From NCBI GenBank assembly GCA_019638085.1, contig JAHBUL010000001.1, positions 1 through 64,000 on the forward strand: a stretch of DNA of 64,000 bases, in the 5' to 3' direction. A program made the translations under genes and the position numbers. Positions 175 through 35,608 of the stretch are shown here, piece after piece. This DNA comes from Flavobacteriales bacterium (GTDB taxonomy: Bacteria > Bacteroidota > Bacteroidia > Flavobacteriales_F > PHOS-HE28). How positions within the stretch are numbered: the first letter of the stretch is position 1; the number at the start of each line of letters is the position of its first letter. Below the pieces are notes generated by a model. It worked only from the letters and a program-made list of their open reading frames with translations, made no database searches and was not told where the DNA came from.

Positions 175-599
175 TTCAGCAACGCCAAGTACTTGTCCTC
201 CTCGTCCCGCATGGCCTTCCGCTTGGCCGCGTTCTTATCGCTGTGGCCCATGAGGTGTAACAGGCCGTGTACCATCACGCGGTGCAATTCCTGCTGCGCT
301 GTTACGCCGTAGGTCTTCGCATTCTCCCGAACGCGGTCGTAGCTGATCAGGATGTCACCTGAGATACCGGTGCCGGTCTGCAGGTCGAAGGTGATCACAT
401 CCGTGTATTCGTCATGCCCGAGGTAGCGCTTGTTGTAGGGCAGCAGGCCCTTGTCGCTCAGCAGTACGAAGGTGACCTCACCGATGGAATGTCCGTGGTC
501 CGAAGCCACCGCACGGATCCATTTCCGCAGCTTCTCGCGCTCTCGGAAGGCATTGGGAACACCGATGGCCTTGAACGCGATGATGCCGCCTCGGGCCAT
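171..599 (-). CDS. ybeY: Endoribonuclease YbeY (rRNA maturation factor)
   Basis: This 142-residue protein is of normal family length. YbeY is a single-domain zinc metalloenzyme acting in 16S rRNA 3' end maturation and 70S quality control in the cytoplasm. The diagnostic segment is HGLLHLMGHSD near residues 110-120. The first two histidines match the zinc ligands of the HGxLHLxGxDH motif, while the third ligand position is Asp, a variant I recall as common in Bacteroidota. The upstream TDVITFD and GDILIS strands also fit. Its ATG overlaps the stop of the upstream ATPase gene as TAATG, so the two are probably translationally coupled. Confidence 0.95.
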   Translation of the reverse strand: MARGGIIAFKAIGVPNAFREREKLRKWIRAVASDHGHSIGEVTFVLLSDKGLLPYNKRYLGHDEYTDVITFDLQTGTGISGDILISYDRVRENAKTYGVTAQQELHRVMVHGLLHLMGHSDKNAAKRKAMRDEEDKYLALLK

Positions 600-1036
600 T
601 ATTCCACCACCGGTTTCAAACTGAAGCTGATCGCAACGGTGGAACCATTGTCCGAGAACTCCACTTTATCGGAAAGGGCGCGCATCAGGAAAACCCCGCG
701 ACCGTGCGGCTTTTCAATGTTCTGCGGATCCGTGGGGTCAGGCAGGTGCTCGTAATCGAACCCGGGACCTTCGTCATTGACAATGAAGGTGATGTTATCT
801 CCTTCGATCGTATAGCCCAACATCACCTGTTTACCAGGGTCCAGTGCGTTGCCATGGTGGATGGCATTGTTCACCGCTTCGGTAAGGGCGATCAGGATGT
901 TCCCATAAAGCGACTCGTGCACGTTATAGCGCGCGCAGGCCTCATCGATAAGCTTCTCCGCAAGGGCAATGTTCTCCGCTTTGGCGGGGAATTCAATGCG
1001 CTGGGTGAAGTGGACGTCTTCAGTAAGAGCTCCCAT
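599..1036 (-). CDS. RsbW/SpoIIAB-like serine kinase ATPase
   Basis: This 145-residue protein is a stand-alone GHKL ATPase domain. The N box is LTEAVNNAIHHGN (around residues 50-62), the G1 box is NDEGPGFD and the G2 region is KPHGRGVFLMR. There is no histidine dimerisation domain, so it is not a sensor kinase. It fits the RsbW/SpoIIAB group, which phosphorylates anti-sigma antagonists or binds sigma factors. No STAS-domain partner is adjacent; the SpoIIE-type phosphatase at 30701 could belong to such a circuit, but that is speculation. It lies 9 bases after the DUF4175 gene and overlaps ybeY by one base, which suggests one operon. Confidence 0.85.
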   Translation of the reverse strand: MGALTEDVHFTQRIEFPAKAENIALAEKLIDEACARYNVHESLYGNILIALTEAVNNAIHHGNALDPGKQVMLGYTIEGDNITFIVNDEGPGFDYEHLPDPTDPQNIEKPHGRGVFLMRALSDKVEFSDNGSTVAISFSLKPVVE

Positions 1037-29198: not shown

Positions 29199-29795
29199 AT
29201 GCAGCGCCGCGCTTATCACCCCGCCGAGAGCACGAAAAGGAGCTTTCGAGAGCAACCTTTCGTGTTGTTCCTGGTGTCTGTACCGTTACTGATGGCAGCG
29301 GTCCTCTTCGGTGGTGCAACCCAGCGTGAGCCGGATAAGGATACCACGGCCATCATCCAAGCCAGCTACATCTATAATATTGCGAAGTTGGTGGAATGGA
29401 GGGAGCCAGCCATGCGCCAAGGCCCATTCGTGATCGGGGTATTGGGGAGTGATAATCTGTACCGGGAGTTGGTGAACAAGTATGCCACCCGGTCGATCGG
29501 GAAACAGCCCATTGAGGTGAGGAAACTTCCCGAAATGCCGGAAGTTGATCGGTGCCACATCCTATTTGTACCCTCGGCGGACAAAGACCTTCTTGCTGCG
29601 ATCCTCAGGCAGGAGAACACACGATCCACCCTGATCATCACGGACTTTCCGGATGCCTTGGCCAATGGAGCTGTAGTGAACTTCATCCCGGCGAAGAATA
29701 CCTTGAAATATGAGATCAGCCTCGTGAATGCCGAAAAGCATCGCATCGATGTGGGACTTACTTTAAGACAACTCGCAGACAAAGTGGTGGAATAA
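29199..29795 (+). CDS. YfiR-like DUF4154 exported protein
   Basis: A 198-residue protein with a signal anchor near residues 20-40 (FVLFLVSVPLLMAAVLFGG). The mature part matches YfiR/DUF4154: AIIQASYIYNIAKLVEW, FVIGVLGSDNLYRELV, CHILFVPSADKDLLAAIL and STLIITDFPDALANGAVVNFI. In Pseudomonas, YfiR is a periplasmic repressor of the diguanylate cyclase YfiN; here no GGDEF gene follows. It lies directly upstream of a TPR protein and a HAMP/SpoIIE phosphatase, so it may control the phosphatase instead. The ATG abuts the next gene's start with no gap. Confidence 0.85.
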   Translation: MQRRAYHPAESTKRSFREQPFVLFLVSVPLLMAAVLFGGATQREPDKDTTAIIQASYIYNIAKLVEWREPAMRQGPFVIGVLGSDNLYRELVNKYATRSIGKQPIEVRKLPEMPEVDRCHILFVPSADKDLLAAILRQENTRSTLIITDFPDALANGAVVNFIPAKNTLKYEISLVNAEKHRIDVGLTLRQLADKVVE

Positions 29796-30692
29796 ATGAA
29801 ACGCGCCATTTCAATAGCTGTCTGCGCCCTCGCCATAGCGACCATGGCGGTCGCGCAGGGTGATCTCTTGGGCAAAGCCAACAAGAAATACCAAGAGGGC
29901 GACCTGAGAGAGGCCCAAACCCTCGTGGACCAAGCCATAAGGGATCCACAATTGGCGTCCGCGCCTGAAGTATGGGTATTGCGTGGATTCATCTACAAGG
30001 ACCTGTACAATGGAGCCACTGGCGAGCAGGCCGCTATCCTACGCGATGAAGCATTGGCCAGTCTTTATACGGCCGTGACCAATGATAGCGCCCACCAGTA
30101 TGACGAAAGCAGCATCCCGGCCTATTATTATCTGGCTCGCACCGTGTACAACGATGCAGTACGGGCGTTGAACGAACTGGAGCCTGACCAGGCCATCAGC
30201 CTCTACAGCAAGTATGGTGAAGCCCTCAGGCGTATGGCCCCTGACACGGTACTTACAGAGCGCAATGTGGAGTTCGACAATGCCCTGGGAACCGTATACG
30301 TGAAGCTCTTTGGAGAGGACCGGCAGGAGCTGAAATGGTATGATAAGGCTGTGGAAACTTACAAGCGCGTGCTGGCAGTGGACAGTTCCAACTACGGCGC
30401 CAACTACAACTTGGCCACCCTGTACTACAACCGTGGCGTCTACAATATCCAACGCATTTCGGCGGACAATGACATCCCCAGTATTCAGCAGATCCAGGAG
30501 GTGAGCCGCGAGTTCTTCACCTTGGCATTACCGTACATGCTGAAGGCCCACCGGATGAAACCGGAACGTACCGAAACGATCTTGGGCCTGGAGGGCATCC
30601 ATTACAGCCTTCAGGATGAGGAGCAGAGCAGGCATTACCGCCACCTCTACGAAGAGCTCCAGCACGACGAGCGGAAGGAAAAAGACAATTGA
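29796..30692 (+). CDS. Exported TPR protein
   Basis: A 298-residue protein with signal peptide MKRAISIAVCALAIATMAVAQ followed by helical TPR-like repeats. Clear units are GDLLGKANKKYQEGDLREAQTLVDQAI (around 22-50) and WYDKAVETYKRVLAVDSSNYGANYNLATLYYN (around 185-216). It is probably a periplasmic scaffold. It starts immediately after the YfiR-like stop and overlaps or abuts the phosphatase gene (a TTG overlaps its TGA as TTGA). This supports a three-gene operon. No enzymatic domain is visible. Confidence 0.85.
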   Translation: MKRAISIAVCALAIATMAVAQGDLLGKANKKYQEGDLREAQTLVDQAIRDPQLASAPEVWVLRGFIYKDLYNGATGEQAAILRDEALASLYTAVTNDSAHQYDESSIPAYYYLARTVYNDAVRALNELEPDQAISLYSKYGEALRRMAPDTVLTERNVEFDNALGTVYVKLFGEDRQELKWYDKAVETYKRVLAVDSSNYGANYNLATLYYNRGVYNIQRISADNDIPSIQQIQEVSREFFTLALPYMLKAHRMKPERTETILGLEGIHYSLQDEEQSRHYRHLYEELQHDERKEKDN

Positions 30693-30700
30693 ACCCGACC

Positions 30701-32485
30701 ATGCGGATCCGGATGACCATAGGGCGCCGCATCGGGATGGGCTTCGGCCTGTTCATATTCTTCGCCTTGGTGGTGGTGCTGCTCACCAACCGCACCATTG
30801 AGAACAGCCGCTCCATCAATGCGCAGATCAACAATGTGTACGGTCCATCCGTGGATGCGTTGGTCCGCTTGCGGAACCTGGTAGTGAATGCACGCACCTT
30901 GATCAAGCACTGGGCCTTGGTGGAAAGCATTCCTGATGCGCCCGAGAAAACCGCGCTGGTGAAGCTCACGGAGAACGACCTACCCGCGCTTCTGGACCGT
31001 ATTGATACCCTCCAGGGTTCGTGGGACAAGGACGAGGTGGCATCCATGAGCAAGGCCTTCCACGATATGAAGGAGCTCTTCACCCTGCATGACAGCGTGA
31101 AGCGGATGCTCCCCACCTTCGAGAGCTATAAGGATCCGGTGGCCTACTTCAATGCGCGCGATCTGGCGGAGGAAGGCGGAGCCCTGGACCTGCAGACCGA
31201 TAAAGTGCTGGCCGACCTGGATGGCCTGCTGGAAGAACAAGGCCGGAAGCGTGAGGCACTTCGGGATGGCATGCTACGGAGCTTCAATTCCCTGAAGTTC
31301 TTCGTGCTCTATCTGGGTACGGCCTTGGTGGTGATCGGATCCATAGTCGCCATCCTCTTGGTACGGGGGATCGTTAAGCCGGTGCGCCGGTTGCGCGGGA
31401 TCCTGCTCCAGCTTGGGCGGGGCGTATTTCCCCGGGCACGTATTGCCACAGGCAATGATGAGATAGGTGACATGAGCATGGCCCTGACCGGTCTGGTGGA
31501 GGGGTTGAAGCGCACCACGGATTTTTCCCATGCCTTGGCTGCGGGCGACTTCAAGGCCGAATACCAGCCCCTGAGCAACGAAGACGTACTGGGCCATGCG
31601 CTGCTGATGATGCGCAAGGAACTTGGCGAACGTGAACGGGTGTTGGAGGAAAAAGTGAGGGAACGCACCGAGGAAATGGTGCGGCAGAAGGATGAAGTTG
31701 AACGCCAGAGCCGCAAAGTGGTGGAACTGTACAAGAATGTTACCGATAGCATCCGCTACGCCAAACGGTTACAGGAGTCCATCCTTCCCTTGGACGCCCG
31801 GATCAGCGAACTCCTTCCGGGCAGCTTCGTTTTCTACAGGCCCAAGGATATCGTGAGCGGCGACTTTTATTGGGTGGAACAGGTCGATGGTAAGACGGTC
31901 TTTGCAGCGGTGGATTGCACAGGCCACGGTGTGCCGGGTGCATTCATGAGCTTGGTGGGTCACAATGGACTCAACCAGGTGGTGAAGGAACGGGGTGTGA
32001 CCACTCCTGCGGAAGTGCTGGACCAACTGAACAGGATCGCCTTCGATACGCTTCACAAGGACCGCGACCAGTACGTGCGCGACGGCATGGACATGGCCTT
32101 GTGTACCTTCCATCCCGACACCTTATTACTTGAGTTCGCAGGAGCCAATTGCCCCTTGTACGTGGTGCGGGATGGTGAAGTGCTGCAGTTCGCTTCCAAC
32201 AAAATGCCCATCGGGGGCTTTGAGCTGAAGGAGAAGACCTTCCAAGGTCATGAGGTGCAATTGGAGAAGGGGGATGCGGTCTATGTATTCTCCGACGGCT
32301 ATGCCGATCAGTTCGGAGGTCCTCGCGGGAAAAAGTTCCGCTATCGCCAGTTCCGTGAACTGCTAGTGAGGATCACGCTGGAAACCCCGGAACGCAAAAA
32401 GGCGATGTTGGTCGAGGCCTTCAACCAATGGAAGGGCACACAGGAGCAAGTGGATGATATCCTGGTGATGGGCATGCAGGTCTGA
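30701..32485 (+). CDS. HAMP-domain SpoIIE-type PP2C phosphatase
   Basis: About 594 residues from the ATG that begins MRIRMTIG; a TTG at 30689 is possible. Helix 1 is near residues 12-30, followed by a periplasmic helical sensor (30-200, MCP-like), helix 2 (FFVLYLGTALVVIGSIVAILLV) and a HAMP domain. A coiled-coil (around 300-350) precedes a SpoIIE/PP2C domain. Metal-binding Asp motifs are SGDFYW, AVDCTGHGVPGAFMS, FSDGYADQFGG and QVDDILVMG. Such proteins dephosphorylate STAS-domain anti-anti-sigma factors or analogous targets. The operon context with YfiR-like and TPR proteins suggests periplasmic input. Confidence 0.93.
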   Translation: MRIRMTIGRRIGMGFGLFIFFALVVVLLTNRTIENSRSINAQINNVYGPSVDALVRLRNLVVNARTLIKHWALVESIPDAPEKTALVKLTENDLPALLDRIDTLQGSWDKDEVASMSKAFHDMKELFTLHDSVKRMLPTFESYKDPVAYFNARDLAEEGGALDLQTDKVLADLDGLLEEQGRKREALRDGMLRSFNSLKFFVLYLGTALVVIGSIVAILLVRGIVKPVRRLRGILLQLGRGVFPRARIATGNDEIGDMSMALTGLVEGLKRTTDFSHALAAGDFKAEYQPLSNEDVLGHALLMMRKELGERERVLEEKVRERTEEMVRQKDEVERQSRKVVELYKNVTDSIRYAKRLQESILPLDARISELLPGSFVFYRPKDIVSGDFYWVEQVDGKTVFAAVDCTGHGVPGAFMSLVGHNGLNQVVKERGVTTPAEVLDQLNRIAFDTLHKDRDQYVRDGMDMALCTFHPDTLLLEFAGANCPLYVVRDGEVLQFASNKMPIGGFELKEKTFQGHEVQLEKGDAVYVFSDGYADQFGGPRGKKFRYRQFRELLVRITLETPERKKAMLVEAFNQWKGTQEQVDDILVMGMQV

Positions 32486-33997: not shown

Positions 33998-35608
33998 TCA
34001 GTACTTGAGGACACGAACGGACCGGACCGCAGTATCTCCCTGCAGCCTCAAGATGTACGACCCCGGTGGGATCGTGCGATAATCGAGTTGAGCGGTACCG
34101 TTGATAGTGAGTTGCCGATCATCTGCAATGCGCCCGGCCATGTCCAACAGCGTGACCCGGTAGGAGCCGTTCAGGGCATCTCCGCTCAAGGTCAATGCCC
34201 GGGAGAAGGGTTGAGGCCACGTCTTGACTTCATCCAGGTTGCTGCCTTCGGCTATTCCCGTGGTGAGAATTACGACCGTTTCGCAGTGGTCAGCGAAACA
34301 GCTGTCTTGGGTTTGCGGATCCCATGCAGAGACCAAAAGGCAGGTCGTATAGGTCCCTGTTCCGGTATAGGTATGTGTGGGCATGGGTCCATATCCGATG
34401 GACCCATCGCCGAAGTGCCATTCGTAGTACTGGGCTGTGGAGTTGCTCGAGTGGAAGGTGGCGACCGGTCCGTCGGTGGTCACCTGGAAGCCCGCGTTGA
34501 GCTGCTCGCAAGGATCTCCCCCGGTTATGGTCACGGTCTGGCAGGTATGGGCCCAGCACGTGTCCTGTGCCTGTTCGTTCCACAGGTAGGCTGAAAAGCA
34601 TGCCGTGTATGTGCCGGGGTAGTAGGTGTGTATCTCCGTCTGGTCGTAGCCCTGTTCACCGTCGCCAAAGTCCCAGAGGTAGCCGTCCGGGGCGAAGTTG
34701 GCCGTACCGGTAAAGAGCACGGTGTTCGTGCTCCCTTGGTTCCAGCTCATGGTGACCGCAAGGTCGTCGCAAGGGTCGTCACCTGTGATGGAGATCGTTT
34801 CACAATGGTTGACGAAGCAGCTATCCTGATCTTGCGGGTTCCACGCCCAAATACCAAGGCAAACATCGTAGGTGCCGGATTGATCGTAGGTGTGATGGGG
34901 GTTCGGGCCTGGACCGCTCGTACCATCCCCGAAATCCCACGAATAGGTCCATGAATTATCGATCACGGCATTCGTGAAGTTCACCGCCAGCCCGGCCGCC
35001 GAATGTTCGAAATCCGCATTGAGGCTGTCGCAAGGTGATCCGCTTTCCTCCACGATGATCGTGGTACAGGTGCTATCTGCACAATCCTGCCATGTGGCCA
35101 ACAGGCAAACGGTGTAGGTTCCTGACTGTTCATAATGATGGTCCGCATTGAGTCCGTTGCTCGCATGTCCATCACCGAAGTCCCATTCGAACACAGCACC
35201 AGCAGGAGCGTTGGTGCAGTTGTAAAAGAAGAAATTGCCAGTGCTCGGTGAGCTCGAAATAAAACAAGCTGAAAGTTGATCGCAGGGATCGCTGGATATA
35301 ATGGTGAACGTTTCGCAATGAAAGGCCGTGCACGTGTCCTGCGTCACGGGGTCCTTGGCCCATACCAATAGGCAGGTGGCGTACGTTCCGGGTTCGGTAT
35401 ACGTATGGGTTGGTACCGGGCCGTTTCCGGTGGTCCCATCACCAAAGTCCCAGATGTAATGTTGATCAGTGGAACTGTTCGAATGAAAAAAGGCGACCTG
35501 CCCGTCAGTGGTCACCTGGAATCCTGGGTTTAGGTTGTCGCAGGGTGACTGCGCCCATGCACCAAAGGCGAACCAGAAGAAGAAAGCAAGGGTGGGGAAT
35601 ATCCGCAT
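33998..35608 (-). CDS. Secreted five-PKD-domain protein with T9SS sorting domain
   Basis: A 536-residue exported protein with signal peptide MRIFPTLAFFFWFAFGAWAQ. Five PKD units follow, each with a WDFGDG-type strand (WHFGDG in the last) and a HTY-x-GTY hallmark. They lie between about residues 25 and 445. Units 1 and 5 are nearly identical in FQVTTDG and FGDG surroundings, a sign of internal duplication. The last about 80 residues form a type A T9SS domain (TWPQPFSRALTL, GSYILRLQGD), so it is exported through type IX secretion. PKD domains usually mediate carbohydrate or protein adhesion; no catalytic domain is seen. Confidence 0.92.
   Translation of the reverse strand: MRIFPTLAFFFWFAFGAWAQSPCDNLNPGFQVTTDGQVAFFHSNSSTDQHYIWDFGDGTTGNGPVPTHTYTEPGTYATCLLVWAKDPVTQDTCTAFHCETFTIISSDPCDQLSACFISSSPSTGNFFFYNCTNAPAGAVFEWDFGDGHASNGLNADHHYEQSGTYTVCLLATWQDCADSTCTTIIVEESGSPCDSLNADFEHSAAGLAVNFTNAVIDNSWTYSWDFGDGTSGPGPNPHHTYDQSGTYDVCLGIWAWNPQDQDSCFVNHCETISITGDDPCDDLAVTMSWNQGSTNTVLFTGTANFAPDGYLWDFGDGEQGYDQTEIHTYYPGTYTACFSAYLWNEQAQDTCWAHTCQTVTITGGDPCEQLNAGFQVTTDGPVATFHSSNSTAQYYEWHFGDGSIGYGPMPTHTYTGTGTYTTCLLVSAWDPQTQDSCFADHCETVVILTTGIAEGSNLDEVKTWPQPFSRALTLSGDALNGSYRVTLLDMAGRIADDRQLTINGTAQLDYRTIPPGSYILRLQGDTAVRSVRVLKY

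Follow-up and report, generated by a model that had tools for sequence, protein, structure and literature searches.

A YfiR-like protein, a TPR protein and a SiaA-like receptor phosphatase in a conserved gene order: a candidate envelope-sensing operon acting on SiaC-type phosphoproteins

What does a YfiR-like protein control in a genome in which a search for diguanylate cyclases finds none? The question is raised by three same-strand genes that fill positions 29199-32485 (+) of a 64,000-nucleotide stretch of DNA (hereafter the window: positions 1 to 64,000 of contig JAHBUL010000001.1, assembly GCA_019638085.1, Flavobacteriales bacterium). They encode a DUF4154/YfiR-like protein (Y; 29199-29795, +, 198 amino acids), a tetratricopeptide-repeat (TPR) protein that appears to be exported (T; 29796-30692, +, 298 amino acids) and a receptor phosphatase with two predicted transmembrane (TM) segments (S; 30689-32485, +, 598 amino acids as listed). 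A first-pass annotation had proposed that this locus is a rewired form of the control that periplasmic YfiR exerts in Pseudomonas, with phosphatase output in place of cyclic di-GMP (c-di-GMP). Our preferred reading, to which we give a probability of roughly two in three, is that Y-T-S is one envelope-sensing operon in which Y controls S, and S, a phosphatase like SiaA, works on phosphoproteins of the SiaC type.

The gene order itself carries the first part of this reading. Using S and Y as queries, we searched 315 related genomes and compared match positions by script; counts refer to the listed S-type matches, of which 109, nearly all full length and from 105 genomes, were examined, leaving aside a contig-cut row (G034) and rows that span the PP2C domain only. 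In 100 of these 109, S is preceded on its own strand by Y at a distance of 890-1315 bp; they make up 36/36 within the genus and 64/73 elsewhere, the latter in 20 other families. Among the other nine, three are Y-T-S (G492, G526, G629), one is split across contig ends (G506), in four S is oriented divergently to Y and to a TonB-plug gene (the TonB-plug call coming from Pfam for L161 and from a seed search for the remaining three), and in the last (G041) Y is convergent with S and a separate Y-T pair lies elsewhere. Across 105 triplets, which include four duplicates (L032-L035), the median gap is -1 bp between Y and T and 12 bp between T and S; a few loci, such as L053, L055 and L069, fall outside this set, with overlapping open reading frames or an uncalled T. 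Such conservation of order is far beyond chance, and because Y stands upstream of S in 100/109 listed matches we reject chance or unrelated neighbours as its explanation. The adjacency in relatives, on which the first-pass annotation had staked its proposal, is the rule among the listed matches. That Y, T and S share no function and stand together through common inheritance alone is highly improbable: conserved gene order is common among close relatives, but here it is kept in 20 other families in which S is only about 40-49% identical, fusions of DUF4154 to SpoIIE exist, and one genus genome that is 95% complete (G447) has no Y match and a low-scoring S match only. We hold it very likely that the three genes make up one signalling system. 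In an even sample of the phylum DUF4154 was found in 41/392 genomes; the family is therefore not universal.

Y matches PF13689 (DUF4154) over residues 53-193 (29355-29777) at E 1.6e-28 and 100 bits, with a cut-off of 24.9, and is the sole DUF4154 match in the host genome (4.0 Mb, 99% complete). We relate it to YfiR on the basis of this Pfam match and of the Foldseek ranking of a low-confidence model of Y, in which the top 15 matches are all YfiR entries, the best of them at E 1.8e-3 and none at E <= 0.001. A PDB sequence search at E up to 1, made with Y alone or with a 30-sequence profile, did not recover YfiR, and a custom DUF4154 profile, swollen to 617 nodes by an uneven alignment, missed E. 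coli YfiR. The only hydrophobic segment of Y is N-terminal (residues 21-39); such a segment is present in 95/105 triplets, with no TM segment later in Y, and the periplasmic location assumed in the first-pass annotation fits this hydropathy. T matches PF20308 (TPR-S) at E 2.6e-9 and 38 bits (gathering score 27.6), with weaker TPR matches besides; its Pfam matches comprise TPR-type families and one weak PUL match, and nothing else. Its single hydrophobic segment (residues 4-22) has an N-terminal counterpart in 105/105 triplets, again with no later TM segment. Gln21, invariant across 28 aligned T sequences, comes right after what is likely the cleavage site, and a lipobox-like motif is seen in just 3/105 T proteins.

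The gapless order of DUF4154, exported TPR and HAMP/SpoIIE genes that had been described for this locus is borne out by Pfam, by hydropathy and by the zero gap between the Y stop codon and the ATG of T directly after it. The listed TTG start of S (30689) overlaps the T stop, and an ATG at 30701 lies 8 nt past T; the N-terminus conserved in alignments points to this ATG as the true start (30701-32485), with TTG as the alternative. Pfam and the alignments give S the architecture TM1, periplasmic sensor, TM2, HAMP (residues 223-274, 31355-31510, +; PF00672, 8.6e-6), helical linker and SpoIIE/PP2C output (31841-32482, +; PF07228, 2.7e-22). Hydropathy places its two segments at residues 15-33 and 199-217, and two TM segments are predicted in 102/105 triplets, which fits a topology with Y, T and the sensor of S outside the inner membrane and the PP2C domain inside. 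The sensor (residues 36-198, 30794-31282, +) is probably a four-helix-type helical bundle, unlike the CHASE8 sensors found near some other DUF4154 proteins: at E up to 0.1, 4HB_MCP_1 is recognised in 11 of the 31 S proteins in our alignment (best 3.3e-6), and the low-confidence fold model of S shows long helices in this region. The window's own S is matched by neither 4HB_MCP_1 nor CHASE8 at E up to 0.1, and of the 36 families matched across the 31 S proteins, the 25 shown do not include CHASE8.

Residues D392, D409, D536 and D590, which we take to be the metal-binding acids, are invariant in the 31 aligned S proteins. In a PDB sequence search the PP2C domain matches the SiaA PP2C structure 6K4E at 6e-34, and the other matches at E up to 0.1 amount to RssB (3e-4) alone, with no RsbU; Foldseek of the low-confidence S model also ranks SiaA-PP2C first, and at E up to 0.01 the SiaA model (NF038263, 1.5e-61) is the sole NCBIfam PP2C model matching S. 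By sequence, S is a SiaA-like phosphatase and not SiaA itself. The host also encodes the matching partners: a SiaB-family kinase (155.7 bits, SiaB_fam_kinase cut-off 85) and three SiaC proteins above the Pfam cut-off, one of them encoded after the kinase gene at L215:7045-8030 and the others at L216 and L217. SiaC was found in 177/177 of the genomes (among the 315) whose match to S reaches E 1e-60 or better, and in 6/138 of the others, an association that comes from related, non-independent genomes and concerns the PP2C type, not the Y-T-S operon, and that was obtained with a SiaC search lacking a positive control (0/14 control genomes above the cut-off). On balance we favour a SiaC-type protein as the substrate of S.

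In P. aeruginosa, the kinase SiaB and the phosphatase SiaA add and remove the phosphate of SiaC, which in turn targets the diguanylate cyclase SiaD (PMC7647112 and PMC8457831). By that precedent the operon described here might still control c-di-GMP, with SiaC acting on a diguanylate cyclase, but we consider this barely credible: a GGDEF (PF00990) search of the host genome found none, and just 3/315 relatives have a match in a search that was positive in 8/14 control genomes, with the proviso that a diverged cyclase could escape PF00990. Given the negative search of the host, we rejected c-di-GMP as the output of the operon.

Several observations weigh against our preferred reading, in addition to the shared ancestry of the genomes and the missing control noted above. 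S scores 209 bits with NF038263, for which the equivalog cut-off is 700, and the host SiaC genes sit on contigs other than that of S. Y scores 110.8 bits with TOL_0243, the only matching YfiR-like equivalog model in NCBIfam, for which the cut-off is 125, and the fold models of Y and S are poor (mean pLDDT 51 and 55, respectively). The first of three YfiR patch positions, aligned to residue 169 of Y, is Gln in 50/70 triplets from outside the genus. Moreover, the host encodes other possible partners: a pair of stand-alone STAS proteins with Ser-containing motifs (DSSGL and NSTGL) and, at window positions 599-1036 (-), an RsbW-like HATPase_c_2 kinase that outscores every other match of its type in the genome (E 8e-28). 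SpoIIE phosphatases classically act on STAS anti-anti-sigma-like proteins, and the same Y-T-S system could follow RsbU/RsbW/RsbV logic, its PP2C acting on these STAS proteins opposite the RsbW-like kinase and not on SiaC. We regard this alternative as unlikely, if still deserving of attention: the PP2C domain is nearest to SiaA in the PDB and NCBIfam comparisons, and SiaC tracks the PP2C type throughout, in what is a one-sided comparison, the co-occurrence survey having covered SiaC alone. Whatever S acts on, the RsbW-like kinase may itself be partnered with the two STAS proteins.

The patch residues merit a closer look. Malone et al. 2012 (PMC3375315) named positions 160, 162 and 183 of YfiR, which form a hydrophobic YfiN-binding patch. 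Mapped by way of the E. coli protein, itself aligned with that of P. aeruginosa, these positions correspond in our reading to residues L169, Y171 and L192 of protein Y; equating F162 of Y with F162 of YfiR was wrong, as that alignment puts YfiR F162 at Y171. Among the 70 non-genus triplets, position 171 is F or Y in 64 and position 192 is L in 56. Position 169 is Leu in 33/35 genus triplets, in 4/4 divergent SpoIIE loci and in 8/8 DUF4154 neighbours of receptors that combine an S-type sensor with other outputs, and is hydrophobic or aromatic in 10/10 DUF4154 neighbours of CHASE8-kinases. We had entertained Gln169 as an interface change suited to the four-helix sensor and dropped it because Leu also occurs beside such sensors with other outputs. 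The Y domain has a single Cys (C119) in 35/35 genus triplets (four duplicates included), aligned to YfiR Cys110. The YfiR disulfides are Cys71-Cys110 and Cys145-Cys152, according to PMC4887326; with one Cys in its domain, Y can therefore form neither.

Loci fetched for containing DUF4154 show what else the family can be coupled to where T was not found; this mode of collection speaks to possibility and not to frequency. In L094, L095 and L198 DUF4154 is fused to SpoIIE, with a long, charged, coil-like region and a single predicted TM segment in between (L094 with 633 amino acids and both domains identified by Pfam, L095 and L198 by custom profiles, and L198 with an extra marginal TM segment within the SpoIIE part). 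Directly after the L094 fusion, at L094:7013-8842, DUF4154 is fused to a class III adenylate/guanylate cyclase. In L092 DUF4154 directly precedes an S-like receptor phosphatase. Elsewhere DUF4154 lies near receptors with an S-type sensor, here matching 4HB_MCP_1 below the Pfam cut-off only, and other outputs: histidine kinase/receiver (L088, L089, L163, L170, L179), HAMP and MCP domain (L174:3736-5475) and GAF or GAF-PAS (L187, L166). The two genes are directly adjacent in L089, L166, L174, L179 and L187; a TonB-plug gene separates them in L088, L163 and L170, a point against the preferred reading. YfiN-type CHASE8 sensors with a kinase also stand beside DUF4154 (L084, L086, L178 and L195 by Pfam; 10/54 non-triplet DUF4154 rows by seed search). 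A different division of labour would have T regulate S directly, with Y serving T as an accessory ligand-binding protein or a stabiliser. In the triplets T sits in the middle and has an export-type N-terminus in every case, which would suit that alternative, but the S-like phosphatase of L092, the receptors with an S-type sensor and other outputs, and the SpoIIE fusions, in all of which T was not found, render it quite improbable. TonB-plug genes abut DUF4154 in 25/54 non-triplet rows (L161, L163, L167, L169, L175 and others), mostly by seed search, and a TonB-plug receptor is perhaps an alternative third partner of DUF4154. Tandem pairs of DUF4154 genes occur in L184 and L188.

We therefore return to the reading in which Y controls S, and to how such control might work. 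That Y acts on S at all we judge to be likely. Periplasmic Y would dock on the periplasmic domain of S and set its signalling state, which TM2 and HAMP would relay into the cytoplasm. The SiaA-like PP2C domain there would dephosphorylate a SiaC-family (or STAS) regulator phosphorylated by the SiaB-family kinase, and dephosphorylation would change the partner to which the regulator binds. By analogy with YfiR the sign of control would be repression, with even odds, in our estimate, that Y is a repressor of S. T may be a co-sensor or a titrating partner, as its position suggests, since it stands where YfiB or a TonB-plug receptor stands elsewhere.

How much of this is rewired YfiR logic, as originally proposed? 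The likeness to YfiBNR is one of layout: a DUF4154 periplasmic protein encoded next to a HAMP receptor that has two TM segments and its output in the cytoplasm, and a third envelope protein in the operon. The rewiring part of the proposal gains from the invariant acidic residues of the PP2C domain, the DUF4154-SpoIIE fusions and the undetected GGDEF. The hardware, however, is unlike that of YfiBNR: the output is PP2C and not the GGDEF of YfiN, the sensor is a probable four-helix bundle, with CHASE8 unmatched, and not CHASE8/PAS, the third protein is a TPR protein and not the Pal-like lipoprotein YfiB, with no YfiB-like gene in the operon, and the Cys145-Cys152 pair of YfiR is missing in Y. The gene order also differs, Y-T-S here and yfiR-dgcN-yfiB in E. 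coli K-12. With SiaABCD the locus shares a HAMP-PP2C phosphatase in the membrane whose catalytic domain resembles that of SiaA, as well as a SiaB-family kinase and SiaC in the genome; it differs in that S has another sensor region, its gene lies apart from siaB and siaC, the host search yielded no diguanylate cyclase, and S would be under YfiR-like control. RsbU/SpoIIE partner-switching phosphatases likewise carry a SpoIIE/PP2C catalytic domain behind a sensor region, but the PP2C domain of S is closer to SiaA, both in sequence and in the Foldseek ranking of the low-confidence model.

Swappable outputs behind YfiR are already published. In the available portions of Malone et al. 2012 (PMC3375315) the YfiR-YfiN core is described as modular and found in many bacteria, the outputs named being GGDEF-EAL, HPT, histidine kinase and MCP, and the legend of Figure S5 lists a yfiNR pair of Rhodothermus marinus. 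The concept of a single periplasmic input core with many outputs is thus shared with our reading; the differences are that theirs is a PAS core, that PP2C is not among the outputs named in those portions, and that the main text, as accessible, does not contain 'bacteroid'. SiaABCD has been described as uniting a PP2C system with a c-di-GMP system in a Campylobacterota paper (PMC9239204) whose accessible text has Bacteroidetes in a reference title only. In the open-access literature our searches returned no paper joining YfiR with SpoIIE or PP2C, or DUF4154 with Bacteroidetes, and none on SpoIIE, Bacteroidetes and partner switching together; DUF4154 alone led to a YfiR-YfiB structure paper. The open-access papers searched thus gave no instance of PP2C as the output, combined with a sensor of the four-helix type and a TPR protein as partner, which does not prove that none is in print.

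A broader proposition is that DUF4154/YfiR serves as a general periplasmic input that has been joined to a SiaA-like phosphatase, merging the Yfi and Sia controllers, both familiar from c-di-GMP regulation, into one c-di-GMP-free SiaB/SiaC partner-switching pathway whose third component, on the envelope side, is a TPR protein, in a lineage nearly without diguanylate cyclases that we infer to be the class Bacteroidia. We are evenly divided on this proposition, of which it is a part that the DUF4154-coil-TM-PP2C fusions are the one-protein form of the same pathway. If it is true, YfiR-type control is a portable periplasmic input and not a c-di-GMP device, an operon of at least 21 families in one class gains a testable pathway from the envelope to SiaC phosphorylation, and SiaB/SiaC is supplied with an input in a group nearly devoid of diguanylate cyclases.

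The genes surrounding the operon are a ferritin gene upstream on the same strand and a universal-stress protein gene downstream on the opposite strand. Further along the window, positions 33998-35608 (-) encode a protein built of PKD domains in tandem and weakly matching a secretion-system C-terminal sorting domain.

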